The translations under genes were made by a program, and so were the position numbers. Of a stretch of 64,000 bases of DNA, positions 8,016 to 29,921 are shown in pieces. The DNA is taken from IMG/VR virus record IMGVR_UViG_3300006947_000003, positions 58,451-122,450 of that record; one strand, written 5' to 3'. The notes under the pieces were generated by a model. That model had not been told where the DNA came from, searched no databases, and saw only the letters and a program-made list of their open reading frames with translations. Every line of letters begins with the position of its first letter. Positions within the stretch are counted from its first letter, which is position 1. This stretch comes from a virus.

Positions 8016-8016
8016 G

Positions 8017-8316
8017 TTATAGTCCTAATGCCGTAGTAACCGTATTCCTCGTTGGCAATCGTATTATAGTGCCGGCAGTAAAGTCCCATATAGGATCTTT
8101 AATTATGTCTCGGTTACGGTTAACAAACACCCACCATAATCCTACGTTACCGTATAAATCAAATGCTAATAAATCTGGTCGATGTTCGTATTTTTTCATA
8201 ATAGTATATGATGGATCGTCATCTTCGTTGGGAATAGTTCGCATATTTAAGATATCTAATTCGTTATTAAATTGTGTTGTTTCTAGATAAGGGCTAGAAT
8301 TTGAATATGTTGCCAT
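8017..8316 (-). CDS. 53: Baseplate wedge protein gp53
   Basis: 99 residues. Diagnostic gp53 text is YEHRPDLLAFDLYGNVGLWW and VFVNRNRDIIKDPIWDFTAG, which resembles the LysM-like core of gp53 wedge proteins. In T4, gp53 bridges adjacent wedges when they assemble round the hub. The ATG overlaps the stop codon of the gp48-like gene by one base (TAATG), showing translational coupling. Confidence 0.85.
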   Translation of the reverse strand: MATYSNSSPYLETTQFNNELDILNMRTIPNEDDDPSYTIMKKYEHRPDLLAFDLYGNVGLWWVFVNRNRDIIKDPIWDFTAGTIIRLPTRNTVTTALGL

Positions 8317-9086
8317 TATAGGAATCCACCTTTATCTGAAATCATTTGGCCGGTTGCTATGTCCTTCATACTAAATTTCGATAACTGGTCCCTACTGTAT
8401 ACTGGCATCATTGTTATAGATACATCTGTCATTGTTGGTACATTATCAGTGCCTATTGTTATATAATCAACTTCTCTAGGTAATGTTAAATCAAATGATG
8501 TTATAACAACTGGAACATTTGGAAGTATGTTTTGGCCGTGTCCTGATAACCTAAGGGTAATAGGAGGGTTTCCAGCATGTGGGTCGTCGTTTCTAAAACT
8601 CTTTGTTACTAATCGCATAAACGTAATAACTGCTAACACGTATTCTGCTTCAGCAACAGTTTGTGCTGTAAACTGGCCAAATATGTTAATTGTTCCGACA
8701 GATGAATTTTGATATACCTGATATGCATAATTTGTGTGTGCCGGTGACATACTGCTATAAGATGCTGTATTGTTTATAACTATTTGCGGCACAAACGGGA
8801 ATACTACACCGTTAGATGCCCGTAAGGGCTCCAACAGCCAATTTTTCTTATTATTGTAGAACATGTTCTTTGCACCAGGTGGCAGTGACAATCTTACCCG
8901 ATTGTCTCTACGGTCATGTAGTGTAGCACCTGTATCATACGAAACCGGGGTAAACCAGGACTCTATCGGATATCCTTCTACGCCAACGCCAGTTAGTTCT
9001 GCGGGATCTGTAAAAGGTGTTCCTTCCCAGGTCCAATAACGACTTCCATAGACACGGTCGTCTTGTGTTGGGTTATTATCTGCCAT
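8316..9086 (-). CDS. 48: Baseplate tail-tube cap protein gp48-like
   Basis: 256 residues from the preferred start. The beta-rich core with LPREVDYITIGTDN near the end and its place at the head of the gp53-hub-gp5 operon fit the tube-cap protein gp48 of marine T4-like phages, which tops the hub and seeds the tail tube. A longer reading frame starts at 9143, but the ATG at 9084-9086 is better: it has AAAGGAAT just upstream, and the late octamer TATAAATA (9115-9122) lies inside the longer frame, so the longer form would not be fully transcribed. The family call is moderate because gp48 and gp54 proteins are related and weakly conserved. Confidence 0.6.
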   Translation of the reverse strand: MADNNPTQDDRVYGSRYWTWEGTPFTDPAELTGVGVEGYPIESWFTPVSYDTGATLHDRRDNRVRLSLPPGAKNMFYNNKKNWLLEPLRASNGVVFPFVPQIVINNTASYSSMSPAHTNYAYQVYQNSSVGTINIFGQFTAQTVAEAEYVLAVITFMRLVTKSFRNDDPHAGNPPITLRLSGHGQNILPNVPVVITSFDLTLPREVDYITIGTDNVPTMTDVSITMMPVYSRDQLSKFSMKDIATGQMISDKGGFL

Positions 9087-9114
9087 ATTAATTCCTTTTT
9101 GTTCTTGCTCTTTG

Positions 9115-9122
9115 TATTTATA
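9115..9122 (-). promoter_or_regulatory. Late promoter TATAAATA for the gp48-to-PAAR baseplate operon
   Basis: Exact late octamer on the minus strand. Predicted start near 9109, leaving a leader of about 23 bases with a Shine-Dalgarno sequence before the gp48 ATG. Confidence 0.65.
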
Positions 9123-9161
9123 TATGTTATTATATGAGTACATAATAAAAGGAGTTGATTT

Positions 9162-10073
9162 ATGGCTAGGAAAAAGTATTTAAATAATAGAGATATTTTA
9201 AAACAAATACATATTAGTAAGAATAGTTACAATTCGTATATTGATGACCAGACTGATTCACAATTTGATATCATTTTGCTCAGTGTGGATAAAATTAATA
9301 TTAGAACTACAGCAGAGGGCAAACGTAATCGTGCCGCTCGAATTCAAAAATTGGCCTACACAGCCGCAGTCGAAAGCGGGCAAAAAGTCAAGCAGGCTGA
9401 ATTTGCTGTTGATTGGAAGAAGATTAAAAAGCACGAAGTAGTATTTCGTGTAATGACGTTTGAGCATATCCCACTAGAACCAGGCAGGAAAAAGAATCCC
9501 AAAACATTAGCAGATCATCACACTAGATGTAATTTCCCGCCATTTAATCATTATCGATTTGACGAGAAGTCTGGAGAATTAATACGTGTAGGCAAATCTC
9601 ATTGGAATGGTGGATTAGAAAACGGTAATTTCGATAAAGAACACGGTAGTGTTAATCGGGAATTAGCAAAGATGTTTATGAAGTTATGTGAACGTTATGC
9701 TACTAGATCTAACTGGCGAGGGTATACGTATAACGACGAAATGCGAAGTACTGCTTTACTACAATTAGCACAAATTGGATTACAATTTGACGAATCTAAA
9801 TCAGAAAATCCGTTCGCATATTACACAGCGGCAATCACTAATAGTTTTACTAGGGTGTTAAATTTAGAAAAAAAGAACCAAATTATCAGAGATGATATAC
9901 TAGAAGAAGCCGGGTTAATGCCAAGCTTCACTAGGCAAACAGAGAATGAGATAGCATCTGGTAAAATGCAAATGTCTGGCAAAAACGGCCCTGTTACTAC
10001 GTTTAAAGCTGAAGATTTAACTGAAGAAGAACTAAATGTGCTGTTGACTGAACGAGACGGCGACGAAGATTGA
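9162..10073 (+). CDS. 55: Late-transcription sigma factor gp55
   Basis: 303 residues, longer than T4 gp55 (185). The C-terminal third holds the conserved gp55 core: NWRGYTYNDEMRSTALLQLA (region-2-like), ENPFAYYTAAITNSFTRVLN and KKNQIIRDDILEEAG. gp55 directs host RNA polymerase to TATAAATA-type promoters, which are abundant in this window. AAAGGAG precedes the ATG. It is transcribed away from the gp48 operon and just ahead of gp47-gp46, so sigma and recombination genes are neighbours as in marine relatives. Confidence 0.88.
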   Translation: MARKKYLNNRDILKQIHISKNSYNSYIDDQTDSQFDIILLSVDKINIRTTAEGKRNRAARIQKLAYTAAVESGQKVKQAEFAVDWKKIKKHEVVFRVMTFEHIPLEPGRKKNPKTLADHHTRCNFPPFNHYRFDEKSGELIRVGKSHWNGGLENGNFDKEHGSVNRELAKMFMKLCERYATRSNWRGYTYNDEMRSTALLQLAQIGLQFDESKSENPFAYYTAAITNSFTRVLNLEKKNQIIRDDILEEAGLMPSFTRQTENEIASGKMQMSGKNGPVTTFKAEDLTEEELNVLLTERDGDED

Positions 10074-10075
10074 GT

Positions 10076-10104
10076 TTGACAATTAGTCTTATATGTAGTA
10101 TAAT
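10076..10104 (+). promoter_or_regulatory. Host-type sigma-70 promoter for gp47-gp46
   Basis: TTGACA (10076-10081), 17-base spacer, TATAAT (10099-10104): a perfect consensus promoter 20 bases before the gp47 ATG. It suggests early or constitutive transcription of the recombination genes, and perhaps of the enzyme cassette behind them. Confidence 0.8.
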
Positions 10105-10124
10105 GATATAAACAAGGTAGGTAT

Positions 10125-11141
10125 ATGACAGATAATTTATTTAAAAAGGCAATTGCCTTTACAGATATTCATTTTGGCAATAAGTCTAACTCGACATTAT
10201 TTAATGACGATTGTTTAGAGTTTGTTCAATGGGTAATTAAGCAAGGTAAAGAACAAGGATGCGACACTTGTTTATTTCTAGGTGATTGGCATCATCATAG
10301 AGCGGCAATTAACGTTGCTACGCTCAATTATAGCATTAAAGCCATTGACTCATTAAGCAAAGCATTTGAAAAAATTGTGTTTATTCCTGGTAATCATGAT
10401 GAATACTATCGTGATAAACGAGATTATAACTCTATAGCATGGATTAAAAATTATTCCAATATTACAATTTACAATGATGTTACTATTGACGGCGATGTTG
10501 CTATTGTGCCGTGGCTTGTTGGTGATGAACATAAAAGCATTAGTAAATTAAAAGCCAAATACATGTTTGGACACTTAGAACTCCCTCACTTTTATATGAA
10601 CGCCCAGGTAAAAATGCCTGATACTGGTGTATTAAAAGACAAAGATTTTGGTGGTGTAGAACATGCTTTTAGTGGGCACTTTCATAAACGACAAACAAGA
10701 GGAAACATTACATACATTGGTAATGCTTTCCCCCACAATTATTCTGACGCTTGGGATGATGAACGCGGCGCGATGGTTTTAGAATGGGATAAAGAGCCAG
10801 AATATTTTGCTTGGCCTGATGCTCCGAAATATAAAACACTAAAATTAGGACAATTATTAGACGACCCGGACAAATATTTGTTGCCTAAGACATATGCTAG
10901 AGTCATGCTAGACATTGAAATTAGCTACGAAGAAGCAAATTTCATACGAGAAAACTTCATGGACAAATACCCAATACGTGAATTGAGCTTAATTCAGCAA
11001 AAGTTAGAAGATACACAAGTCGACGAAACAATGGAAATTAATTTTGAATCAGTTGACAGTATTGTTTACAGCCAGCTTGACGCTGTACAGAGTGATTTTT
11101 ATGATAAAAACCTCTTAACCGAAATATATAGGAATCTTTAA
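10125..11141 (+). CDS. 47: Recombination endonuclease subunit gp47 (Mre11-like)
   Basis: 338 residues. Calcineurin-like metallophosphoesterase motifs appear in order: FTDIHFG (Asp14, His16), FLGDWHHH (Asp54), PGNHDEYYRD (residues about 88-97), then FGHLELPH and SGHFHKRQ. These bind the two catalytic metal ions. With gp46 it forms the Mre11-Rad50-type nuclease that resects DNA ends for recombination-dependent replication and supports host DNA breakdown. It follows a consensus sigma-70 promoter and its stop overlaps the gp46 ATG by one base. Confidence 0.95.
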   Translation: MTDNLFKKAIAFTDIHFGNKSNSTLFNDDCLEFVQWVIKQGKEQGCDTCLFLGDWHHHRAAINVATLNYSIKAIDSLSKAFEKIVFIPGNHDEYYRDKRDYNSIAWIKNYSNITIYNDVTIDGDVAIVPWLVGDEHKSISKLKAKYMFGHLELPHFYMNAQVKMPDTGVLKDKDFGGVEHAFSGHFHKRQTRGNITYIGNAFPHNYSDAWDDERGAMVLEWDKEPEYFAWPDAPKYKTLKLGQLLDDPDKYLLPKTYARVMLDIEISYEEANFIRENFMDKYPIRELSLIQQKLEDTQVDETMEINFESVDSIVYSQLDAVQSDFYDKNLLTEIYRNL

Positions 11142-12904
11142 TGTTCAATTTGAATAGTATTACTGTTAAGAATTTCATGAGTGTAGGTAACAGTACACAA
11201 GCAATAGATTTTAATAGAGAAGACTTAACACTTGTACTTGGTGAGAACTTAGACTTAGGTGGAGATGATACAGGCGCTAGAAATGGTACTGGTAAAACTA
11301 CAATCATTAATGCTTTAAGTTATGCCTTGTACGGTCAAGCACTTACTAAGATTAGGGTTGACAATTTAATTAACAAAACAAACGGCAAAAACATGCTTGT
11401 TTGTTTAGAGTTTGAAAAGAATAACAAAAAATATAAAATTGAGCGTGGAAGAAGGCCAAATTTATTAAAATTTTATATCGACGAGCAAGAATTAGAAGTA
11501 GAAGACAATGCTCAAGGCGATAGTAGAGAAACACAGCATGAGATAATTCGTTTACTTGAGATGGGTCACGAAATGTTTAAGCACGTGGTTGCTCTTAACA
11601 CTTACACAGAACCTTTCCTAAGTTTAAAAAATAACGACCAACGTGCTATCATTGAGCAACTATTAGGTATTACTCTATTAAGTGAAAAAGCAGAAACGCT
11701 TAAAGATCAGATGAAGCGAAATAGAGATGATGCTAAAGAAGAAGAATTTAGAATTAAAGGTGTAGAGTCTGCTAATGAGCATATTAAAGAACAAATAGAA
11801 AATCTCAAACGCAGAAGTAAATTATGGGAAAATACTAAAGACGAACAAGTACAAAAGTTAGAGAAAGCAATTATCGATTTAGGTGATGTGGATATTAACA
11901 ACGAACTAGAACAACATACAAAATTATCTGATTTTAGGGACCTTAGACGACTACAAACTACGCTTGAAAGTGACATTGCTAGTAGTGAACGTCAAGTAGA
12001 TCGCCTTATTAGCACATCAGAAAAAGTTGCTAGTAGTTTAAAACATGTTGAAAATCATACATGCGATAGTTGTGGGCAAGACATTAAACACCTAAAAGAA
12101 TACGAAGAAAAATTAAAACATCTCAAACAAGAACAAGAAGATACCGCAATAGAATTACAAGAAGTAAACAAAAATCTTGCTTTACAAATCGTATTAAGAG
12201 TTGATGTAGGAGAGAAACCAGAAACATTTTATGCTGATTCTACAGAAGCACACAATCATAAAAGTACTTTAACAACACTTGAAAACCAGCTAACAAATAA
12301 ACTAGCAGAAGAAAATACATACAACGAACAGATAACTGAAATGCAAGTATCGGGAATTCAAGAAATTGATTTTGTAATATTAGAGCAGTTAAATAATGTT
12401 AAAGAACACCAAGAGTTTTTACAAAAATTACTTACTAGTAAAGATAGTTTTGTTCGTAAACGTATTATTGAGCAGAATTTAGCATTTTTAAATAAACGTT
12501 TAACATACTATCTTGATCGAATTGGATTACCACATAAAGTGTTATTTCAAAATGATTTATCAATAGAGATTACTGAACTAGGGCGTGATTTAGACTTTGA
12601 TAACTTATCTAGAGGCGAACGTAATCGACTAATTTTATCATTAAGTTGGGCATTTAGAGATGTATGGGAAAACTTATATCAACCGATAAATTTATTGTTT
12701 ATCGACGAGCTAGTAGACTCAGGCATGGATACATCGGGTGTAGAAAGTTCGTTGGCTGTGTTGAAGCAAATATCTAGAGACAGAAAAAAGAGCATATGGC
12801 TTATCTCACATAGAGACGAGTTAGCTGGCAGAGTTAATAATGTTCTTACAGTAACTAAAGAAAACGGATTTACTAGTTACAACAACGACGTCAAAATCAA
12901 TTAA
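11141..12904 (+). CDS. 46: Recombination endonuclease subunit gp46 (Rad50-like ATPase)
   Basis: 587 residues. Walker A is GARNGTGKTTIINALSYALY (residues about 45-64). Long coiled-coil arms flank a zinc hook CDSCG (Cys308, Cys311). The ABC signature LSRGERNRLILSLSW lies near residue 490, and Walker B LLFIDELVDSG follows, with the H-loop LISHRDE near the end. It is the ATP-driven clamp partner of gp47. The length is close to T4 gp46 (560). Confidence 0.95.
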   Translation: MFNLNSITVKNFMSVGNSTQAIDFNREDLTLVLGENLDLGGDDTGARNGTGKTTIINALSYALYGQALTKIRVDNLINKTNGKNMLVCLEFEKNNKKYKIERGRRPNLLKFYIDEQELEVEDNAQGDSRETQHEIIRLLEMGHEMFKHVVALNTYTEPFLSLKNNDQRAIIEQLLGITLLSEKAETLKDQMKRNRDDAKEEEFRIKGVESANEHIKEQIENLKRRSKLWENTKDEQVQKLEKAIIDLGDVDINNELEQHTKLSDFRDLRRLQTTLESDIASSERQVDRLISTSEKVASSLKHVENHTCDSCGQDIKHLKEYEEKLKHLKQEQEDTAIELQEVNKNLALQIVLRVDVGEKPETFYADSTEAHNHKSTLTTLENQLTNKLAEENTYNEQITEMQVSGIQEIDFVILEQLNNVKEHQEFLQKLLTSKDSFVRKRIIEQNLAFLNKRLTYYLDRIGLPHKVLFQNDLSIEITELGRDLDFDNLSRGERNRLILSLSWAFRDVWENLYQPINLLFIDELVDSGMDTSGVESSLAVLKQISRDRKKSIWLISHRDELAGRVNNVLTVTKENGFTSYNNDVKIN

Positions 12905-12914
12905 AGGAGAATAA

Positions 12915-14330
12915 ATGAGACCGTACCACTTACTAGTACCATCGGATCGTGTCGCCCTGAGTGATAAAAATACCAAATTAACTTACAACGAATTTATTAA
13001 AGAAATACACAGGATTAATACCTGGTATAAAGAACAAGGATATCATGCTGGGCACAGAATTAGTGTAGTAGGTATTAACTCTGTTCAAACTTATTTGTAC
13101 CTTTTCGCCGCGGCATTAGATATGTGTGCTACAACATTGCCATGGGGTGATGATTTGAAACAAGCATATAAAAACGGCGAAGAAGGTGACTGGAAATTTA
13201 GGTTAGACGCTAACAAATCTAATGCTATTGTTTATGTTAACCTAGATGGTACTGTTGATTTAGAACATTTACATTATGAAAAAAGTACAGTTCTTGACAA
13301 AGAAATAATGCTTTACTATAGCAGTGGAACAAGTCACCCGTACGGTTGGACTAAAAGTTATCCAGTACCTTATGAACTAGATGAAAATAATTATGGCACT
13401 AGCCAAGATGTTACACATTATTATAGAGAACGTGGAAACAAATGGTATGGTAATCCAGAAACAAACAGAACAATTAATTCTATGGGTCCTTATATAGGTT
13501 GGGGACAAGAAGTTACATTTACAACAATAGCAAAAGGTGGGCATTGTCATCTTATATACGAACAAGAAGAATATGCCGAAGCGGCTAAATGGGTTAAGCC
13601 TACATGGTTGGCAGGGTTTCCACTAGCATGGCAAAAAGTAATCGACAAAGGTGACAACGGTGGACACAGCATTGAGGTATTTGAGTATAGTGGTGCCGCA
13701 CTTATCGATGGACAAAAAGAAGAATTTGAAAACTTCTTTGGGCATAGTAATTGGATATGTGGTTACGGTGATGCCGCAACTGGTATGACACTTGTTAACT
13801 ATTCAAATAATTTTGATACAATTGGTAAGCCAATTGATTGTCTTGTAAACTCTGGTGCTGAATATCGATTATCAAAAGAAAATAGTACTATTGAATTTAG
13901 AGGTCCAATGACACCGGATGGTGATTGGTGGGACACGGGCGATATTGCTGAAATAAATGAAGACGGTAACTGGATATTAAAAGGTAGAGCAAATGAACTT
14001 ATTATTGTAAGAGGTGGCGGTAAAGTATATCCGTTTGAAGTTGAGCATATGATTTCACAGCATCCAGGTGTTAAAGAAATTTATGTTTATCCACAACCTG
14101 ATGAGAATTTACATTTTGTACCGGCTTGTATATACAACGGCGATGTTTCGCCTGAAGATTTACAAGAATGGTGTAAAGATAAAATACAAACATTTAAGCA
14201 ACCTGTAAAATATACAAGGCTAGTAAGCACCGTAGCAATATTACGTCAGGCAACATGTATTCCTAAAGTAAGTAGAGTAAATATACATAACACATTAATA
14301 GATAACCCGGATTGGATTAAAGATGAGTAG
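12915..14330 (+). CDS. AMP-forming acyl/aryl-acid ligase (ANL superfamily)
   Basis: 471 residues. ANL motifs in order: A3-like YYSSGTSHPYGWTKS (134-148), A5-like GYGDAATG (283-290), A7 WWDTGDI (338-344), A8 LKGRANELIIVRGGGKVYPF (355-374) and an A10-like lysine in ATCIPKVSR (Lys451). Family members activate a carboxylic acid as acyl-AMP and usually pass it to a thiol. The A3 loop is divergent (Ser-His in place of the usual Thr-Gly), so substrate and acceptor are open. No carrier-protein gene is seen nearby. AAAGGAG lies before the ATG. It is the first of four tightly packed genes, the next overlapping by 8 bases. Such a ligase is unexpected in a T4-like structural and recombination region. Confidence 0.85.
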   Translation: MRPYHLLVPSDRVALSDKNTKLTYNEFIKEIHRINTWYKEQGYHAGHRISVVGINSVQTYLYLFAAALDMCATTLPWGDDLKQAYKNGEEGDWKFRLDANKSNAIVYVNLDGTVDLEHLHYEKSTVLDKEIMLYYSSGTSHPYGWTKSYPVPYELDENNYGTSQDVTHYYRERGNKWYGNPETNRTINSMGPYIGWGQEVTFTTIAKGGHCHLIYEQEEYAEAAKWVKPTWLAGFPLAWQKVIDKGDNGGHSIEVFEYSGAALIDGQKEEFENFFGHSNWICGYGDAATGMTLVNYSNNFDTIGKPIDCLVNSGAEYRLSKENSTIEFRGPMTPDGDWWDTGDIAEINEDGNWILKGRANELIIVRGGGKVYPFEVEHMISQHPGVKEIYVYPQPDENLHFVPACIYNGDVSPEDLQEWCKDKIQTFKQPVKYTRLVSTVAILRQATCIPKVSRVNIHNTLIDNPDWIKDE

Positions 14331-14934
14331 CCTTAATAAAAATTTAAGTGATAGTTATAATAATGGTTTCGACAACAAACAAGAACAAAGAAAACTTTAT
14401 GATCATTGGGAAACATATACCCAAGATATATGCGATGAAGCAGGCTGGCTAGGACCAGTTAAAACAGCTAGATATGTAGTAGAAAATTATATTATTAAGT
14501 CTGTAGAAATTGCTGACTTAGGTTGTGGCCCTGGGCCAGTTGGCGAGATTCTTAAAGGTGCGGGCTACGTTAATGTAGATGGGTACGACTTAACAGAACA
14601 CTTTGTAAGTAAAGCAAAACAGTTTTATAGAGATGCTACAGTTATAGATATTACACAAGAATTGTTTCCTAAAAAATACGATATTATTATAGCAAGTGGT
14701 GTTTTTACCAAAGGACATTTAAGTTCGGCACCTGCTGAAAACATTGCTAACAGTTTAAAAGAAAATGGTATGTTAGTTATAACAACGCCCGATATGGATA
14801 ACTACAACTATATGGAAGAAGCAGGCTGGAACGAACAGCAATTCTTAACTGAGGTTAAACGTATCGGTCCTTGGCCCAGTTTAGTTACAACACATCAACA
14901 CTATCATTCCTTGAGGATATTTAAGGCAACATGA
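14323..14934 (+). CDS. Class I SAM-dependent methyltransferase
   Basis: 203 residues. Motif I is ADLGCGPGPVGEIL (64-77), followed by an acidic residue at the end of strand 2 (DGYDL) and a motif-IV-like IIIASGVF, as in small-molecule class I methyltransferases. No DNA-methylase catalytic motif (DPPY or NPPF) is seen, so a metabolite, peptide or sugar substrate is more likely than DNA. The start overlaps the ligase gene by 8 bases and the stop overlaps the next ATG by 4 (ATGA), so the four cassette proteins are likely made together. Confidence 0.85.
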   Translation: MSSLNKNLSDSYNNGFDNKQEQRKLYDHWETYTQDICDEAGWLGPVKTARYVVENYIIKSVEIADLGCGPGPVGEILKGAGYVNVDGYDLTEHFVSKAKQFYRDATVIDITQELFPKKYDIIIASGVFTKGHLSSAPAENIANSLKENGMLVITTPDMDNYNYMEEAGWNEQQFLTEVKRIGPWPSLVTTHQHYHSLRIFKAT

Positions 14935-16787
14935 AAAACGTTTATCTAGCAAATTTTAGTATGACAATAAACCCGGGCAATCATAAATTCTTGCCTTATA
15001 GTGTTGCTGGGTTGTGGAGTTATGCTGAGCAAGATGAACAAATTAAAAACGATTATAAACTAGCAGGTCTTTATTACGAAAAGAAAGACATGGATACAAT
15101 AGTAGATGAACTAGTAGATCCGTTTATATTTGGATTTAGTGTTTATATTTGGAATGAAAACTATACAAATGAATTAGCAGAAAAAATTAAAACACGCTGG
15201 CCAGAGTGTATGATTATTTACGGCGGTCCTCAAGTTCCACAGGACAGCAAACACGAATGGTGGAATGGTCACAAGTATGTAGATGTTGTTGTGTTTCAAG
15301 AAGGTGAAGAAATATTTAGAAATATATTACTAAACCCTAGCAAGGAATATATTGATACTCAGCCCAATACTGCTGTTAATTTTGGCACACATTGGAAAAA
15401 TAATGTTGCGGGTAATAAAAGAAAAACAAGACAACGTGATTTAAGTAAATTACCAAGTCCTTATTTGTCAGGCAATATGCCTAAAATAAAACCACACCAT
15501 GCTATGCTTTTTGAAACAAACAGAGGATGTCCTTATGCTTGTTCATTTTGTGATTGGGGCGGACTTACTTACAGTAAATTAGTTAATCATGATATTAATA
15601 GACTAGAAGCAGAAATAGAATACGCTGGTAAAAATAAAATTGGCTTTTTATATAGTGTTGATGCTAACTTTGGTATTTTAAAAGATCGAGATAGTGCTAT
15701 TGCTGATATGATTATTGCCACAAAAAAGAAATATGGCTATCCTAAAACTTTCTTTGTTAACTGGGCAAAAAATGCCAATGAAGAAATTTTAATAATAGCA
15801 AAGAAAATGTTTGATGCTGGACTTATTAAAAGTTTTATTATGAGTTTACAAACACTAACACCATTAGCATTAGAACTTATAAAGCGTGATAACATGGATA
15901 GTAACGACTACGAATTCTTTGCTAAACGTTGTGCTGAATTAGGTTTGCCATTTGACTGTGAACTTATTGTTGGTAACCCTGGTGAAACTGTAGACAGTTG
16001 GAAAGATACTTACATAGAAATTACAAACTACCAAGAACTAACAACATACTTGTATCCTTTAGCATTATTACCTAATGCTGAATTAGGCAGTACAGCAAGT
16101 CGAGAAGAATTTGGATTTAAAACTATCCGTAGGCCTTTTCCTGGAGTACTAAATGAGGAAACAAAAGAAGATATAGAACTTGTAGTTTCCACAAAGTGGT
16201 TATCTGAAGATGACTTAAAACACATTTGGGAATGGACATGGACTACTAGAACAGGGCATGAATTTAATTTTTTACGTGATGCCGCAGATTATTTAGATAG
16301 AAAAAAAATTGTATCTAAGAAACAATTTTATGATGATTGGTATTTGTTTGTTATTAATGGTAACGGGTTAATTAAAAGACATTTTGAAAAAGCAAAAGGA
16401 AGAATTGACGAATATATATTTGGATTAGCAAGTCAAAGTTTAGGTTACAGAGAAAACTTAACAGAAAAACGAGATGAGTTTTATGCCGAAGCAAGGACTT
16501 TCCTTGAACAGTACAGCATAGATAAAGACATCTTAACTGAACTTATTAAGTATTGTGATGCTAGGCTATTTGACTATGATGCTAATTATCCTATTACTAA
16601 AACATTTAACTACGACTTTATACATGATGTAAAAAGGAAAACAACAATAGAATTTACACCAACACTAAATGGTGCTACTACTACAACTGCTCATTTACTT
16701 TTAGAAGGAAGTGATAGAGTTAGTGACAACTTTAAAATAAGGCAGACATTAACATGTACTCTGAACGATCCAAAGATAATTTTGTAG
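14931..16787 (+). CDS. B12-binding-type radical SAM enzyme
   Basis: 618 residues. Residues 1 to about 140 form a Rossmann-like domain resembling the cobalamin-binding domain of class B radical SAM enzymes (FGFSVYIWN, then IIYGGPQVP near 95-103, and VVVFQEGEE). The base-off His motif is not obvious. The radical-SAM core follows, with CPYACSFC (Cys200, Cys204, Cys207), then FLYSVDANFGI and ELIVGNPGET, typical of this class. Such enzymes methylate unreactive carbons or rearrange bonds in natural-product pathways. The C-terminal 200 residues are helical and unassigned. The gene is third in the cassette. Confidence 0.85.
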   Translation: MKNVYLANFSMTINPGNHKFLPYSVAGLWSYAEQDEQIKNDYKLAGLYYEKKDMDTIVDELVDPFIFGFSVYIWNENYTNELAEKIKTRWPECMIIYGGPQVPQDSKHEWWNGHKYVDVVVFQEGEEIFRNILLNPSKEYIDTQPNTAVNFGTHWKNNVAGNKRKTRQRDLSKLPSPYLSGNMPKIKPHHAMLFETNRGCPYACSFCDWGGLTYSKLVNHDINRLEAEIEYAGKNKIGFLYSVDANFGILKDRDSAIADMIIATKKKYGYPKTFFVNWAKNANEEILIIAKKMFDAGLIKSFIMSLQTLTPLALELIKRDNMDSNDYEFFAKRCAELGLPFDCELIVGNPGETVDSWKDTYIEITNYQELTTYLYPLALLPNAELGSTASREEFGFKTIRRPFPGVLNEETKEDIELVVSTKWLSEDDLKHIWEWTWTTRTGHEFNFLRDAADYLDRKKIVSKKQFYDDWYLFVINGNGLIKRHFEKAKGRIDEYIFGLASQSLGYRENLTEKRDEFYAEARTFLEQYSIDKDILTELIKYCDARLFDYDANYPITKTFNYDFIHDVKRKTTIEFTPTLNGATTTTAHLLLEGSDRVSDNFKIRQTLTCTLNDPKIIL

Positions 16788-17314
16788 CAGAAACTTCTAT
16801 AGGATATAACATAGATGAGTTCTCATACTTGTACGACAAGTACGATAGAGAATTTGAAATGTATCACAGTAAATATGGGATACCTTTAGGACTAGAAGTT
16901 GTATATAATCCAAATATTCTAAAAGAACCTATTATACAATATTGGATTGGATACTTTGAAAAATTTGGTTTAACATTTAATTTTGAAAAAGATGAAAGTA
17001 TGCCCGGCAGTGGCCAAGCAGGGTTCCAACTAGTAAGAACTAATTTTCAAGAAAAAGCTACCAGCGTTGATATCCATCAAGATAACTTTAGAACAGCCGG
17101 ATTAATAATTCCGTTATCATTCCCTCAGCGTATACAATGGTATGACGACGAAGATAATTTGCTTTATGATCACAATTATACAAAGATTACTTTTATAAAT
17201 GCTGGCGGTCATAGACACGGGGTAAATTATTCACCAGAGCCTAGATGGCAATTTCAACTAGATTGTTTCAACAGTTGGGAAGAAATCAACAATATAGTCC
17301 TAAAAAATTTATAA
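16754..17314 (+). CDS. 2OG-Fe(II) oxygenase-like protein
   Basis: 186 residues. A double-stranded beta-helix oxygenase pattern is visible: an HxD motif (His108-Gln-Asp110), a distal GGHRHGV (His153 or His155) and a later Arg164 in PEPRWQF that could bind 2-oxoglutarate. This is the iron- and 2OG-binding layout of non-haem hydroxylases. The best start overlaps the radical SAM gene by 34 bases. No later ATG keeps the N-terminal part. It is the last gene of the cassette and suggests a final hydroxylation step; the substrate is unknown. Confidence 0.65.
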   Translation: MYSERSKDNFVAETSIGYNIDEFSYLYDKYDREFEMYHSKYGIPLGLEVVYNPNILKEPIIQYWIGYFEKFGLTFNFEKDESMPGSGQAGFQLVRTNFQEKATSVDIHQDNFRTAGLIIPLSFPQRIQWYDDEDNLLYDHNYTKITFINAGGHRHGVNYSPEPRWQFQLDCFNSWEEINNIVLKNL

Positions 17315-17370
17315 ATCTCTTATTAGTTCAGAAACCTTTACTGTAGGTACCTATAACTGTAAATAACATT

Positions 17371-17387
17371 GACTGTAGAATACAGTC
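17371..17387 (+). terminator. Short hairpin after the enzyme cassette
   Basis: Perfect 7-bp stem GACTGTA / TACAGTC with GAA loop, followed by CTTATTAAT. Weak tail, so it may be a terminator or a leader structure for the next small gene. The 95 bases between genes hold nothing else clear. Confidence 0.35.
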
Positions 17388-17409
17388 CTTATTAATAAAG
17401 GAGAAAGTA

Positions 17410-17589
17410 ATGTCAACATTACACGACCAAATAACAGAAGCATATGTAAACTATATTGCAGAAGCAGAAAAGTTTGATACTAAAGGAAATAAAGCCGCGG
17501 CGACTAGAGCTCGTAAAGCACTAGGAGATTTATCTAAGCTAGGTAAGTCACGTAGAGCCGAAATACAAGAAAAAAAGAACGCTATGTAA
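17410..17589 (+). CDS. Histone H1-like small basic protein (Hc1-type)
   Basis: 59 residues: a helical N-terminus (MSTLHDQITEAYVNYIAEAE) then FDTKGNKAAATRARKALGDL and a basic tail ending KKNAM. The KGNKAA-TRARKAL block closely matches bacterial and chlamydial Hc1 histone-like proteins (a family known from Bacteroidetes and from marine T4-like phages). It could bind phage or host DNA. Strong AAAGGAG ribosome-binding site 6 bases before the ATG. It stands alone between the enzyme cassette and the nuclease gene. Being short, it is easily missed. Confidence 0.75.
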   Translation: MSTLHDQITEAYVNYIAEAEKFDTKGNKAAATRARKALGDLSKLGKSRRAEIQEKKNAM

Positions 17590-17628
17590 TTAGAGTTCTT
17601 TCTTAATTAAGAAAGATAATATTAATTT

Positions 17629-18141
17629 ATGCCAAGCCCACAAAAAGCAAAAGGATCAGGTTGGGAACGAGATGTCGCAAGATTCTTGTCCGGACTATAC
17701 GGTGAAACGTTTATAAGAGCACCTGGTTCTGGTGCTTATGTGGGTGGGGTTAATAAAGCAAGAAAAGAATATTTACACGAAGGCCAAATCAGAGCTTTCA
17801 AAGGAGACATTGTACCTGGACAAAGTTTTCCTAAACTAAATGTAGAATGTAAGTTTTATAAGCAATTCTCATTTCACAGACTGTTACGACCTGAACCACT
17901 TCCTCAATTAGAAGAATGGATATCACAACTTATGGATGTAGCAGATCCGGACGATTTCAATATGTTAATAATGAAATTCAATCAAGTAGGCAAATACATC
18001 GCTATAGAATCAAAATACAAATCAAAATCAAAAAATTACATAGACTATTGGTCAAACACTACAGGTTCAAACTGGCGTATATCAGACTTTGAAGAATTTT
18101 TCACAAGAAATTCAGATTTAGTTAAAACGCTTTGTGCCTAG
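17629..18141 (+). CDS. PD-(D/E)xK nuclease, resolvase-like
   Basis: 170 residues. A restriction/resolvase-type nuclease core is visible: Glu13 in GSGWERDVARFLS, Asp60 in FKGDIVP, then ECK (Glu73-Cys-Lys75) in LNVECKFYK. This E..D..ExK order is typical of Holliday-junction resolvase and RecB-like nuclease folds. It might process recombination or packaging intermediates, or break host DNA. It lies 39 bases after the histone-like gene and just before a long gene-free stretch. Substrate and role are inference. Confidence 0.65.
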   Translation: MPSPQKAKGSGWERDVARFLSGLYGETFIRAPGSGAYVGGVNKARKEYLHEGQIRAFKGDIVPGQSFPKLNVECKFYKQFSFHRLLRPEPLPQLEEWISQLMDVADPDDFNMLIMKFNQVGKYIAIESKYKSKSKNYIDYWSNTTGSNWRISDFEEFFTRNSDLVKTLCA

Positions 18142-18164
18142 CATAATATACTATTAACAACAAC

Positions 18165-18203
18165 TTTTAATCGCAACTCTTAACCGCAACTCTTAACCGC
18201 AAC
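18165..18203 (+). repeat. Three tandem 13-base repeats
   Basis: Unit TCTTAACCGCAAC: copy 1 (18165-18177) differs at two bases, copies 2 (18178-18190) and 3 (18191-18203) are identical. They sit at the left edge of the candidate structured RNA and could be protein-binding iterons or single-stranded linkers. Confidence 0.8.
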
Positions 18204-18530
18204 CAAATAGCTACCTCGAAATCATGCCCTTGAGGGCATACGACATCGTATGTTCGGAATCTGGGTTGTAGCAAGTAAAGGCATTTACTTCAAGTGCTAA
18301 AAGATAGAGGCTCTGTGAAACAGATACAACCTCAACAATTGATATGTTGGATATCTCGGTATATCAAATGTTCCGTGACTAATGTGAAGCTGAAGTAGGG
18401 GGTTAGCGGGTCGCCGCCTCCGATAGTAGAAATACTAAATCTTCTTATGATATGATGGGTGAGTTACTCGAATGATGAACAATCCTTACTTTGCCCCTAG
18501 CGGGTGAAGTATGGGCAAAATATCTGAATG
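18204..18530 (+). ncRNA. Candidate structured RNA, family not recognised
   Basis: Gene-free stretch between the nuclease gene and gp51 (18142-18708). No coding frame is supported. Hairpins follow one another: ATGCCC-TTGA-GGGCAT (18224-18239); an overlapping CATACG-ACAT-CGTATG (18237-18252); a two-part stem TAGCA+AGTAAA / TTTACT+TGCTA (18269-18299); GAGG/CCTC enclosing TCTGT-GAA-ACAGA (18307-18333); AACA+TTGATAT / ATATCAA+TGTT (18334-18372); GCGG-GTCG-CCGC (18406-18417); and a 10-bp stem TACTTTGCCC / GGGTGAAGTA (18487-18511). TTTGCCC in the last stem can instead pair with GGGCAAA (18513-18519). GC content is visibly higher than in the surroundings. The plus strand is preferred because most loops are purine-rich in that sense and the nuclease gene is upstream; strand is not proven. 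Confidence 0.55.
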
Positions 18531-18589
18531 ATAAACTAACTGTATTCCATTAATTAAAAAAAAAATGTTTTGAACGACAGTGATAAAAC

Positions 18590-18608
18590 TTATCAACGGA
18601 GTTGATAA
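18590..18608. terminator. Bidirectional hairpin between the RNA region and gp51
   Basis: Perfect 8-bp stem TTATCAAC-GGA-GTTGATAA. A second small stem ACAATA-CTT-TATTGT follows at 18613-18627 and a run of ten A lies at 18556-18565. Position between convergent units suggests termination, though T tails are weak. Nothing else clear is seen from 18531 to 18708. Confidence 0.4.
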
Positions 18609-18708
18609 CATTACAATACTTTATTGTTATTATGTTTCTGAAAGCTCTGATAAAAATAGTTTGCTAACATATTCTTATTGATTCCATTAATAATACTAAG
18701 TGTATCTA

Positions 18709-18927
18709 TTACATTAGTGGAAGTTTTGAGCTCTCAGTATTTTTGATATTTTGTTTGATTATTTCGTGTATTTGTTCACGTTCAGATGGTGATAGTGCCA
18801 TAGCTTCGGTATACGATATGCCACCTCGCATATACCAAGTTGTCTCCAACAAATCTTTTTGTAAGGCTTTTGACTCATTGTCAAAACTTTGGAGTAATTT
18901 GACAATGTTGTCATTGTCTAGTGCCAA
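18709..18927 (-). CDS. 51: Baseplate hub assembly protein gp51-like
   Basis: 72 residues. The centre TTWYMRGGISYTEAMALSPS followed by EREQIHEIIKQN matches small gp51-like proteins that follow gp26 in marine T4-like phages; in T4, gp51 catalyses hub assembly. The start is TTG (18925-18927): no ATG precedes the conserved part, and the only internal ATG would remove it. The gene begins 5 bases after gp26 ends. Confidence 0.65.
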   Translation of the reverse strand: MALDNDNIVKLLQSFDNESKALQKDLLETTWYMRGGISYTEAMALSPSEREQIHEIIKQNIKNTESSKLPLM

Positions 18928-18932
18928 AAGCC

Positions 18933-19859
18933 TTATCCGAAAAAAGTTGAGTTGTCAATAGTAAACGGTTGCGACCATTTCTCCCCACAAGGGGTATTGA
19001 CACCTTCTAAATCAGTAGCACCATCACACTCGAATTGAATAGGTTTGATGGTTGATTGATTCTTATTCTCTTCTAAATGTTCTTTAATACTATTGTATAT
19101 ACTTCGATCACAGTTTGCTACAAATTCTTTTAGTTGTTGCCGATCAGTAACAACTGTGCTGTCTGGCAATTCGATTTTAAGAATTGCCTCTGATAAAATA
19201 CCAACTGAATATACAGTTAATCTAACAAACGCATCTTGAAACTTGTCAATACGATCTTGTTCAGTCATGCCGTCGTCAGTAGCAATACCTTGTATTAGTC
19301 GTTGCTGTTCAAAGTTCTTAATAGCTTCTTTAGTAACTGCTTCGTATGTTAATGGTTGAAAGTATATCTTTAAATCACTAACATTAATTAATGGCTTATA
19401 TGATGGTACTGTAACCCTCTCTATAATAGTTTTAAGATCTAGTTCAAACTCGTTTTCTTCGCTACATTTAGGACACACACCTTTAAGTGTTGTTGTTTCG
19501 CCATATGTAGCAATTCTAATACTAACAAGAATCATGTCAACATCTAATGCACAGACTTTCCAGGCATTTTTAATTCCTGGAATACAACTTTGAATAACTT
19601 CAACAGTAGTAGCACCGTTCATTAATGCGTCTGGTGTTCTCATTAGAATTTCGTCTTTAGCTGTCATTGGATAAACAGCCAATTCTCCGTTAACTGGAAT
19701 TTCAATTTCATCCGGTGTATTAAATTCACCTTTGCTTGGCAATGAAATATAAAGTGCCGGTCTACGAAAATATGCTTGTAATGGATTAACCGGTGTTTCC
19801 GGTTTTGTTACCTTAGTTGCCATTTCTGGAACTTTATTATTTGTTTCTATAGTACTCAT
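18933..19859 (-). CDS. 26: Baseplate hub protein gp26-like
   Basis: 308 residues from the preferred start. The segment YISLPSKGEFNTPDEIEIPV, then MTAKDEILMRTPDALMNG and a Cys pair CPKCSEENEFELDL (about residue 135), is typical of gp26-type hub proteins of marine T4-like phages; T4 gp26 is shorter (208). It works in assembly of the baseplate hub. A longer frame begins at 19901, but the ATG at 19857-19859 has GGAGG at the right distance, so the shorter form is chosen. A second Cys pair may exist near the end (CDGATDLEGVNTPCGEKW). Confidence 0.8.
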   Translation of the reverse strand: MSTIETNNKVPEMATKVTKPETPVNPLQAYFRRPALYISLPSKGEFNTPDEIEIPVNGELAVYPMTAKDEILMRTPDALMNGATTVEVIQSCIPGIKNAWKVCALDVDMILVSIRIATYGETTTLKGVCPKCSEENEFELDLKTIIERVTVPSYKPLINVSDLKIYFQPLTYEAVTKEAIKNFEQQRLIQGIATDDGMTEQDRIDKFQDAFVRLTVYSVGILSEAILKIELPDSTVVTDRQQLKEFVANCDRSIYNSIKEHLEENKNQSTIKPIQFECDGATDLEGVNTPCGEKWSQPFTIDNSTFFG

Positions 19860-19871
19860 GAATTTTCCTCC

Positions 19872-19879
19872 GCTAAATA
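19872..19879 (+). promoter_or_regulatory. Late-promoter octamer GCTAAATA before the tape measure
   Basis: Degenerate late octamer, also found before gp13, gp16 and gp18. Predicted start near 19885, about 53 bases before the tape-measure ATG. Confidence 0.45.
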
Positions 19880-19903
19880 CAATATAATAGTAGTTAGTCA
19901 TAT

Positions 19904-19911
19904 TATTTATA
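19904..19911 (-). promoter_or_regulatory. Late promoter TATAAATA for gp26-gp51
   Basis: Exact octamer on the minus strand. Predicted start near 19898, leader of about 39 bases containing GGAGG. Confidence 0.6.
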
Positions 19912-19937
19912 TGAGTATATAATGGTGAAATGAAAAC

Positions 19938-22835
19938 ATGGCAATAAGAATTAATACAGAAGATAATGAAATTATAGTCAGTGATGTAGCAACAGAAGAC
20001 ACTCTACTGGAACTACTAAAAGCAGTTGAAGGCCTTAAGAAAAAAGGTAACAACACTACTGACGCATCGAAACAAGCAAAAAATACCGGCGAAAAACTTG
20101 AAAAACTCGCCAAATCTGTAGATAAACAAACAATTACGTTAACTGACTGGGCTGGAAATATGGATGACGCCTCTGCAGACTTGTCTGCCGATATGGCTGC
20201 AAGGAGTAAAGCAGTAGCTGGCGCTTTGGGCAAAGTTGTAAAAAATACAGGTAATGTAATAAGTGATCTTATAAGAGGCCCGGCTAGTTTTGAATCACTA
20301 GGTAGGGCAATTCAGCAAGGTGCTGGGTTCTTAGGTGACGGATTAGGAGCCGCTGCAGACAGTATATCAGTTTTAGGCACTAAACTGCCAGGTGTAGGTG
20401 CTGGACTATCGATGGTTGGTGCCGCCGCAGGCGCGGCCGCAATGGCTATTGCCGCATATGCTCAAAATATGTATGACGGATTTATAGCATTAAGTCAAAG
20501 TGGAGCAAATTACAACGGTGACATAGTTAGGACAGCTGGCCAGGTACAGGGGTTAGGCATAACAATGAATGCCTTTACTCAGATTGTTCAACAAAATGCA
20601 GCCGGACTAGCAAACTTTGGCGGAACAGTTTCAGCTGGTGCCAAACGATTTGTAGAATTAGCAGATGTAATGCATGGGAAATTTGGTGGTGAGCTGTATG
20701 CTTTAGGTATCACATTTGACGAACAAGCAGAGCAAATGGCTAAGTTTACTCAAACACAATCGAGAAATACAAATTTTCAAAATTTGAGTTATGCTCAACA
20801 AAGTGTTCTCTTTAAAGATTATATAACAGACTTAACTAAGTTAACAGGACTCACAGGCAAGAGCAGACAGCAACTATCAGAAGAACTAGCACAGAACGAT
20901 TTAAGAGCTGATGCTAATTTGCGATTGGGTGGTGCTACAGTTGAGGCACGAAAAGCATTGGAAATGGCATTTAGTGCCTCAGGCGGACAAGATTCGGCCA
21001 TTTCACAATTGTTAATGGCAGGTATTGCAGGTAAAGATTTAGCCCAAGAAATGGCCGCTGGCAACACAACAATTAAGAATTTTGTAGCTGGTAACAGTGA
21101 AGCGGCTAAAAAGATACGCGACTTAGGTGATGCTGTAGCAACAGGAAAAATAACACAAGACGAATTTCACAAGCAAATGGCCGCTATAACACCGGCTATT
21201 GAACGAAGTGGCAAAGAATTTCAATCATTATACGGTATAAATGATGTTGCTACTACTATGACAGAAGCAGGTTCTAGTGTTCAGAAGTATAATGTTCAAA
21301 TTGAACAACTAAGGAAAGCAGAAGCTGATGGAATAGACACTACAACTAAATCAGCAGAAGGCGCCGGTGGTGCCATTATGGACCTTTCTGCACAGTTAGT
21401 ATCAGCTACATCTAGTATTAAGTCTGGTGTTAATACTGGAATAGCAGATTTTGTTGAATCTATGGGTTTCTCAGATGCTAAAGACTTAGGCGCCAAAATT
21501 CAAGGTAGTATTGATAAGTTTGGCACGATGGCTGACTTAATAATTGACGCATTTTCGGACTTTTACACACAGTTTAGTATAGTTGCCGCGGCACCGTGGG
21601 ACTACTTATTAGGTGGCACAAGTACAAAAGAATTACGAAGCCAAGCATCAGGGCATATAGAGAGATTGGGATTAGGCGACACTATAACCCCGGACTTTAT
21701 TAGCAGTTTGTCAGGTGAGGATGCTACAGCATTAATAAAAGGCTCCCTTCAGGGTAAAGACCAAGCGTTAGCGACCTACGAAGCCATTAAAACACGAAAA
21801 GGCGAGGAAATTGCAGTAGAGAAAGAAGAGATCGTTAAGGCTTCAACTCTGGGTAACGTAGAAACTGATAGCAATACTCTTACTACAGAGCAAATAGAAG
21901 CTGACCTCAATCTGAAGAAAACAGGTAACGTTGACGCTAACGGAACTTCTGCTACTACGGGTAACGTTGCCACTTCAGGAAGTGAAGTTACTTTAGAAGC
22001 TGACCTCAATCTGAAGAAAACAGGTAACGTTGACGCTAAAGGAACTTCTGCTACTACGGGTAACGTTGCCACTTCAGGAAGTGAAGTTACTTCTTCTACA
22101 CCTTCGTTTAACGCTGATAGTTATAGTGATTTGTTTAGTCAGAAACCTCTAGAAAATGGTGTAATATTACCAAACGGTAATATTCAAATGGAAGCATACG
22201 GTCACGATTCGCCTATAGCTTCTATGCTAACTCAGTGGTCTAATGCTACTAACGGCTTAGGTACCGGATCGGCGTACCAATATGCCGCACATCAGTTTGC
22301 AAATAATGTATCAGATTTGATGGGAGACAATGACGGTATAATGCCTGACAGCATGTCAGCAACAATCGCCGAAATGCAGAAAATATTTAATACAAACGAC
22401 ATTGGATTAGCGGCTGACGGATTTGAAGGAATGCTAGGAAAGAGCGGCAAGCTACAAGACTTGTGGCACATACGGTCGATGATAAACAACAGAATATCAA
22501 GTAACGGCCTAACTCCACCGTTTAAGCAATATGGCGGAGCTGTCGGAATGGGCAATCCATATATTGTTGGCGAGCGTGGCTCTGAATTATTTACACCAAG
22601 CGCCGGCGGCACTATAACACCTAATGAGGAACTGTCAACAGCACAACATTCTGAAAATATATATAAAGCCTTAAAAGAAAGCAATAAAATTAATGAAGGA
22701 ATAGAAAATAAAATATCTAAAAATGCTGAATTATATGCTAGTCTTACTAGCGAACAAATTGATAAGTTAAATACGTTAATTAAATTAACTACAACAGGAA
22801 ACAAGATAGCAAATACGATATCAGCTAATTCGTAG
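19938..22835 (+). CDS. 29: Tail tape-measure protein (gp29-like)
   Basis: 965 residues. The N-terminus is coiled coil. Around residues 130-175 there is an Ala/Gly-rich hydrophobic helix (GVGAGLSMVGAAAGAAAMAI), common in tape measures. Near the C-terminus is the tape-measure signature GNPYIVGERGSELFTPSAGG. This protein sets tail length and is ejected during infection; its place beside gp26 and gp51 matches gp29 in T4. Residues about 654-719 contain a perfect-register tandem duplication of 33 residues (see the repeat entry). No strong ribosome-binding site is visible before the ATG. Confidence 0.8.
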   Translation: MAIRINTEDNEIIVSDVATEDTLLELLKAVEGLKKKGNNTTDASKQAKNTGEKLEKLAKSVDKQTITLTDWAGNMDDASADLSADMAARSKAVAGALGKVVKNTGNVISDLIRGPASFESLGRAIQQGAGFLGDGLGAAADSISVLGTKLPGVGAGLSMVGAAAGAAAMAIAAYAQNMYDGFIALSQSGANYNGDIVRTAGQVQGLGITMNAFTQIVQQNAAGLANFGGTVSAGAKRFVELADVMHGKFGGELYALGITFDEQAEQMAKFTQTQSRNTNFQNLSYAQQSVLFKDYITDLTKLTGLTGKSRQQLSEELAQNDLRADANLRLGGATVEARKALEMAFSASGGQDSAISQLLMAGIAGKDLAQEMAAGNTTIKNFVAGNSEAAKKIRDLGDAVATGKITQDEFHKQMAAITPAIERSGKEFQSLYGINDVATTMTEAGSSVQKYNVQIEQLRKAEADGIDTTTKSAEGAGGAIMDLSAQLVSATSSIKSGVNTGIADFVESMGFSDAKDLGAKIQGSIDKFGTMADLIIDAFSDFYTQFSIVAAAPWDYLLGGTSTKELRSQASGHIERLGLGDTITPDFISSLSGEDATALIKGSLQGKDQALATYEAIKTRKGEEIAVEKEEIVKASTLGNVETDSNTLTTEQIEADLNLKKTGNVDANGTSATTGNVATSGSEVTLEADLNLKKTGNVDAKGTSATTGNVATSGSEVTSSTPSFNADSYSDLFSQKPLENGVILPNGNIQMEAYGHDSPIASMLTQWSNATNGLGTGSAYQYAAHQFANNVSDLMGDNDGIMPDSMSATIAEMQKIFNTNDIGLAADGFEGMLGKSGKLQDLWHIRSMINNRISSNGLTPPFKQYGGAVGMGNPYIVGERGSELFTPSAGGTITPNEELSTAQHSENIYKALKESNKINEGIENKISKNAELYASLTSEQIDKLNTLIKLTTTGNKIANTISANS
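21897..22094 (+). repeat. 99-base tandem duplication inside the tape-measure gene
   Basis: Copies 21897-21995 and 21996-22094 are almost identical (for example GACGCTAAC against GACGCTAAA, and ACTTTA against ACTTCT at the ends). Each codes 33 residues beginning EADLNLKKTGNVDA. The reading frame is kept. Confidence 0.95.
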
Positions 22836-29454: not shown

Positions 29455-29543
29455 CTATTGTCGTAAATCGTGCTACAATAGGTGTAGACTTATGCGGAAT
29501 TGACCCACCGCGTATTACATAGAACGTAACTTAGGAGAAAAAA

Positions 29544-29921
29544 ATGGGACGTCCAGTAAATAAAAGTAAATTTGGTGAAGTAGATTCTGATTCAGGCAAC
29601 ATCACAGTTAACTGTAAAGTTAGCTCAAATGCGGCTTCAGTTCAGGGTATGATTAAATCACAAAGATCATCTACAAAATTCAATGTTGATGATGCAAAAG
29701 ATGATTCAGGTAACGAAGGTGTTTGTTCACTAGTTGATAAAGCATCTGAGCAATTAGCGGCAGATGAAATGTCTATTTCTGCTGTAATTAACGGTACTAC
29801 AACTTATAAAAATATTAAAAAGTTGTTTAACAGAACGTGTACTGATTATGATAATGTACGATACACATGGTCCATATCAGATGACTCTGCTGTTAATGTT
29901 ATGACGATTGTTGCTATCTAA
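29544..29921 (+). CDS. Conserved small structural-type protein
   Basis: 125 residues beginning MGRPVNKSKFGEVDSDSG. Proteins with a similar MGRPxNKxxFG start recur in marine T4-like phages near structural genes, but no function is established to my knowledge. It has its own promoter and terminator, so it is expressed as a single late gene, which fits an abundant small virion protein. AGGAG precedes the ATG. Confidence 0.65.
   Translation: MGRPVNKSKFGEVDSDSGNITVNCKVSSNAASVQGMIKSQRSSTKFNVDDAKDDSGNEGVCSLVDKASEQLAADEMSISAVINGTTTYKNIKKLFNRTCTDYDNVRYTWSISDDSAVNVMTIVAI

Follow-up and report, generated by a model that had tools for sequence, protein, structure and literature searches.

The cargo genes of phages tend to be interpreted one by one, as boosters acquired from the host, and the question raised by this locus is what a T4-like phage might do with four overlapping enzyme genes set directly behind gp46. 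The window (the whole 64,000-base stretch analyzed here) forms the 3′-terminal 64 kb of a virus contig of 122,450 bases, IMGVR_UViG_3300006947_000003. Its backbone is T4-like, with the late sigma factor gp55, gp46 and gp47; its portal protein is closest to those of the large phages Atu_ph07, PA5oct, CBB and 121Q (47-50% identity), and a 204-kb relative, G002, indicates that the phage group is large-genomed. A ribosome-binding-like AAAGGAG lies 5′ of the first gene, and successive genes overlap by 8, 4 (ATGA) and 34 bases in the ORF list, so that the four intact, overlapping genes described in a first-pass annotation are indeed present. The answer that we favor is that these genes probably form a horizontally exchanged, phage-specific cassette, whose four enzymes would build or tailor a small carboxylic-acid-derived molecule in one pathway during infection.

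Table 1. Features of the window (positions within its 64,000 bases) and of related gp46-Hc1 loci.
Feature	Location	Strand	Basis or remark
Sigma-70-type promoter	10076-10104	+	TTGACA-N17-TATAAT, 12/12, spacer 17; precedes gp47-gp46-cassette
gp47 and gp46	10125-12904	+	PF00149, PF13476; left border of slot; gp46 ends at 12904
Four-gene cassette	12915-17314	+	ORFs intact, between gp46 and Hc1-like gene
Predicted ANL-superfamily (AMP-forming) acid ligase, 471 aa	12915-14330	+	PF00501, PF13193
Class I SAM-dependent methyltransferase, 203 aa	14323-14934	+	PF13489, 38.7 bits (cut-off 27); SAM motif DLGCGPG
Predicted cobalamin-dependent radical SAM methylase, TokK/CysS type, 618 aa	14931-16787	+	Profile matches to 7kdx, 9n1b
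2-Oxoglutarate/Fe(II) oxygenase-like protein, 186 aa	16754-17314	+	Conserved residues, model fold
Hc1-like small basic protein	17410-17589	+	PF07432, E 2e-13; right border of slot
Alternative cassette of relative G017	L286:10986-15001, L283:161-3290, L278:1055-2327		
Slots with a large insert	L198, L204, L209, L211-L213, L217, L224, L228, L232, L233, L236, L244, L263, L275		

The first issue is whether the genes encode what they appear to encode. Pfam, NCBIfam, comparison with TokK and CysS, conserved residues and Foldseek agree with the four classes initially proposed: ligase, methyltransferase, B12-type radical SAM enzyme and 2-oxoglutarate (2OG) oxygenase. In the ligase both ANL domains pass their thresholds (PF00501, 39.4 bits against a cut-off of 29.9; PF13193, 32.3 against 24.5). 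It has its fold family in common with MenE/FadD/Cfl-type ligases and likewise their C-terminal motifs, of which A7 (D340/D343), A8 (G357 R358) and A10 (K451) are invariant in nine aligned sequences. It departs from those enzymes in belonging to a phage-only clade, in the collections searched, and in two further motifs: in all nine sequences A3 reads YSSGT-xxx-YG, lacking the usual lysine, and A5 reads YG(D/E) in place of the TE pair. The early description of intact motifs with a divergent A3 loop was right about A3 but wrong to make it the sole exception in the ligase. Lacking the A3 lysine and the A5 TE pair, the protein could be an adenylase of weak or altered activity; purifying selection on its gene is strong (dN/dS 0.05-0.07), which suggests an altered enzyme rather than a dead one. 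A structural model (pLDDT 43) is too poor to judge the active site. A search for a cellular source, in eight genomes carrying a relative of the radical SAM enzyme, returned generic matches only (best E 1.5e-14).

A second AMP-binding protein, of 232 aa, is encoded in some contigs; its A3 and A5 motifs are canonical but it has no C-terminal domain, and the notion that it and the cassette ligase compensate for each other is speculative. This protein belongs to a three-gene companion set (L004:10362-13952, L007:8313-10430, L023:332-1505 and L183:16359-18485), together with a sulfotransferase-like protein and one of unknown family, found near the cassette in several contigs and away from it in G002.

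The third gene product is the most informative. Its radical SAM domain passes (PF04055, 34.2 bits; cut-off 29.5), the CxxxCxxC motif (C200/C204/C207) is invariant among aligned cassette relatives, and the best solved relatives in profile searches are TokK (7kdx, E 2e-82) and CysS (9n1b, E 2e-56). The N-terminal cobalamin domain falls just under its Pfam cut-off (PF02310, 28.9 bits against 32.1), and the TokK alignment covers it. The first-pass annotation listed the lack of a clear base-off histidine as an exception to the intact motifs; the residue is indeed absent, but its absence is what is expected of this type, since TokK and CysS place a tryptophan (Trp76 and Trp75, respectively) under the cobalt and neither has a base-off histidine (PMC13331322, PMC12846815). 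Trp74 of the window protein aligns with Trp76 of TokK, and a lower-face tryptophan is found in seven of eight cassette copies, the other (one of two at locus L008) having valine. Sequence clearly places the protein among the relatives of TokK and CysS, both cobalamin-dependent methylases, and methyl transfer to carbon is its predicted reaction. Membership in the KedN5 family (NF033712), the best NCBIfam match at E 9e-79, was considered and rejected, the score of 265.4 bits standing against a curated cut-off of 700.

With TokK, a ThnK-type carbapenem methylase, the phage enzyme is homologous over residues 18-478 and has in common the tryptophan under cobalt and CxxxCxxC, but it sits in its own clade, and a beta-lactam-forming gene was not seen nearby. 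With CysS, the iterative methylase of cystobactamid, it is likewise homologous and has an equivalent of Trp75, whereas the CysS gate residue Trp271 is phenylalanine in the phage alignment and the cassette has no NRPS or carrier protein. Because the CysS structure contacts the pantetheine tail of its substrate (PMC12846815), the analogy suggests that the phage enzyme could take as substrate an acyl-CoA that the ligase would make; CysS also extends a methoxy group (PMC12846815), which would suit a methyltransferase partner in the phage cassette.

The methyltransferase is conserved among relatives and by Pfam and SAM motif is an ordinary class I enzyme. The fourth protein matches no Pfam family, and PHROGs holds no family for it or for the radical SAM enzyme, but H108-x-D110, H155 and R164 are invariant in seven aligned sequences, giving the HxD...H facial triad and arginine. 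A moderate AlphaFold model (pLDDT 61) submitted to Foldseek drew top matches that are nearly all prolyl-hydroxylase-type 2OG oxygenases (best E 3e-4), and the protein thus appears to combine the residues of a 2OG oxygenase with, as modeled, its fold. Radical SAM enzymes are expected to be oxygen sensitive and 2OG oxygenases need oxygen; the pairing is no contradiction, because carbapenem pathways combine TokK-type methylases with 2OG oxygenases.

If the enzymes are what they seem, what is their substrate? Surface glycans are one candidate: the cassette could produce an unusual group, methylated or acylated, for attachment to sugars of the host envelope or to virion glycans, blocking rival phages or evading receptors or defenses. 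Wider radical SAM relatives in viruses and cells adjoin genes of the UDP-sugar dehydrogenase, epimerase, glycosyltransferase and GDP-fucose synthase types, and five contigs encode sulfotransferase-like proteins along with the cassette. In a tree of 106 sequences, however, the radical SAM proteins of the cassette group in a single clade, fully supported by SH-aLRT, that contains no cellular sequence (the cellular relatives compared being the best 80 loci listed), separate from all members of the glycan clusters, and a search of eight cassette contigs for family-2 glycosyltransferases gave none above cut-off. We regard a glycan target as rather unlikely.

The position of the cassette is informative in its own right. 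Among 31 loci with both gp46 and the Hc1 gene, Hc1 follows gp46 by 11-60 nt in 13, where the slot is empty, by 225-249 nt in 3 and by 0.9-3.7 kb in 15. Every one of the 15 large inserts (at least 0.9 kb) has one or more radical SAM genes, with CxxxCxxC in every case and homology or Pfam support for each, a descriptive count confined to the gp46-Hc1 junction; in some inserts there is also another radical SAM gene or an oxygenase-like or aminotransferase-like gene. The junction behind gp46 is a hotspot for cargo, where relatives swap sets that are centered on radical SAM genes or analogous to these. The four-gene cassette itself is absent from the best 80 gp46 relatives, many of whose loci are short fragments.

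One close relative, G017 (gp46 86% and portal 90% identical), fills the slot with a different set: a putative binding protein, a choline/glycine-betaine type ABC permease, a TauD-type oxygenase, a 471-aa AMP-binding ligase, a nitroreductase and a methyltransferase homologous to that of the cassette. Ligase, oxygenase and methyltransferase, three of the four classes of enzyme, are thus found again in another cassette at the same slot. The permease and binding protein, alongside such enzymes, could mean that cassettes in the slot draw on betaine-type acids from the host or the environment, or on other imported osmolytes or amino-acid-like compounds, as precursors or nutrients. The window cassette has no transporter, though, and the G017 ligase is only distantly related to its ligase; for the window, an imported substrate of this kind seems unlikely.

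Do the four genes belong together at all? Phage cargo regions collect metabolic genes and the gene order here is variable, so that unrelated auxiliary genes, without a common pathway, might have become neighbors by accident. This is improbable: the same four families occur together, with translational overlaps, in five sequence lineages while other genes change. Ligase, radical SAM enzyme and oxygenase are found together in every viral contig long enough to tell, with the methyltransferase adjacent or, in G005, 8 kb from the other three. The ligase family occurs in viral contigs inside the cassette only, at 10 of 10 loci recovered by single-protein and profile searches. Seven contigs examined, one of 204 kb, hold the whole set, save one that breaks off within the radical SAM gene. 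Co-occurrence is based on about 11 contigs, several nearly identical, and among them the genes are neither single nor broken, in keeping with the original view of the cassette as one unit. In every lineage the radical SAM and oxygenase genes overlap by 31-37 nt, more than expected by chance, and a dN/dS of 0.05-0.15 indicates purifying selection across the cassette.

What does change is position, order and copy number. The cassette lies behind gp46 in G000 (the phage of the window), G001 and G002, beside nrdAB and tRNA-Thr/Ala genes in G003, G004 and G006, and at yet other positions in G005 and G007; the methyltransferase comes first at loci L007 and L009, two radical SAM copies are present at L008 and two ligases at L023. 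Because synonymous divergence between the window and L002 is 0.54-0.59 for ligase and radical SAM genes, about half the 1.25-1.37 of gp46 and gp47, recent exchange of those two genes is suggested; methyltransferase and oxygenase are intermediate (0.96-0.98). The gene set, its family assignments, co-conservation, mobility and selection are thereby established. Metabolic cargo in a T4-like phage recalls phage auxiliary metabolic genes, but those are usually taken to be single host-derived genes, whereas here several tailoring enzymes, among them a cobalamin radical methylase, are conserved together across phage lineages and move as a unit while their genome position changes. Cultured phages yielded one 24% radical SAM match and generic FadD-like matches but not the set, which was likewise missing from the best 80 cellular loci of radical SAM relatives. 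The enzyme families are known; in line with the first-pass annotation, a phage set of this kind finds no description in the open-access literature searched, and neither its co-conservation and mobility among phages nor the radical SAM slot was found there.

The neighborhoods outside the slot bear on the weakest alternative, that the enzymes make a group and attach it to phage DNA bases or tRNA: several contigs have the cassette beside nrdAB, glutaredoxin and tRNA genes, thyX occurs in G007 and G002, and the methyltransferase weakly matches phage tRNA methyltransferases, but that neighborhood is not conserved, none of the four proteins matches a known DNA-modification family and a ThyA-family dUMP/dCMP hydroxymethylase was not found in eight incomplete contigs, which makes nucleic-acid hypermodification very improbable. 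This alternative, the glycan one and the imported-compound one all concern substrate or target, and they overlap with the one-pathway reading rather than exclude it.

For the preferred reading, a single pathway acting on a small carboxylic acid, a series of steps can be envisioned, its activities, order and product being predictions. After activating the acid with ATP, the ligase would hand on the acyl group, either to host CoA or straight to an amine. The acyl product would then be C-methylated with methylcobalamin by the radical SAM enzyme, the methyltransferase could supply an O- or N-methyl group, perhaps giving the methoxy group for CysS-type extension, and the oxygenase would hydroxylate the product. 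A phage-encoded carrier protein was considered. ACP-like genes are present in three contigs (five others are fragments), but both proteins read, from G000 (L169:3182-3421, minus strand) and G002 (L189:7264-7479, plus strand), have aspartate at the position of the phosphopantetheine serine; a phage carrier is for this reason unlikely, and host CoA would be the simplest acyl acceptor. Cobalamin would likewise come from the host, a CobS match not having been found as a sign of phage cobalamin synthesis.

More tentatively, the gp46 junction may be a T4-like slot for interchangeable mini biosynthetic clusters, mostly radical-SAM-centered, with the window cassette giving a phage-specific acyl metabolite that carries methyl and hydroxyl groups. 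Such a compound would be a genuine natural product of a virus, directed against rival phages or host defense or serving to remodel host or virion surfaces. Demonstration of even one product would make viruses makers of small molecules by radical chemistry, and the slot would then supply a list of further candidate pathways.

Other genes of the same phages could support such iron-sulfur enzymes. Outside the window, G000 encodes an IscU-like scaffold, a NifU-like protein and a flavin reductase; IscU-like genes also occur in G003 and G004, and flavin reductase genes in G002, G003 and G004. In one part of G000 (C1:767-15957, locus L169), some nine SPASM/twitch-like radical SAM genes stand in tandem, accompanied by genes for IscU-like, NifU-like, ACP-like and aminotransferase-like proteins, and G007 has a similar array. 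Many further viral and cellular relatives of the cassette radical SAM enzyme (L024-L093 and L094-L168) often lie beside polysaccharide genes, and some Clostridia relatives form tandem runs of three or more copies.

Timing, finally, can be predicted from regulatory motifs. The consensus sigma-70 promoter noted at the outset is the only 12/12 match within 8000-20000, and L002 has an 11/12 promoter at the matching position. Lower-scoring promoter sites and terminators in that interval are as numerous as chance predicts, and one weak hairpin (17371-17387) lies 3′ of the cassette. The T4 late promoter motif occurs at chance frequency, with none 5′ of the cassette. In G003, G004 and G006, the cassette has its own 11/12 sigma-70-like promoter directly 5′ (shuffle frequency about 0.01 each). 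Early expression together with gp47-gp46, as originally suggested, is probable.

Three further observations concern the window beyond the slot. A gene-free stretch of about 470 nt (18160-18640) is roughly 80-90% conserved relative to L002 and also present in L278 and L280; Rfam gives no match to it even at E 1, its folding energy is ordinary, and it is a candidate non-coding RNA. The gene at 19938-22835 (965 aa) contains an in-frame direct repeat (ADLNLKKTGNVDA...) at 21770-22075, and a freshwater-2 RNA motif (Rfam RF02980) lies at 29472-29546.
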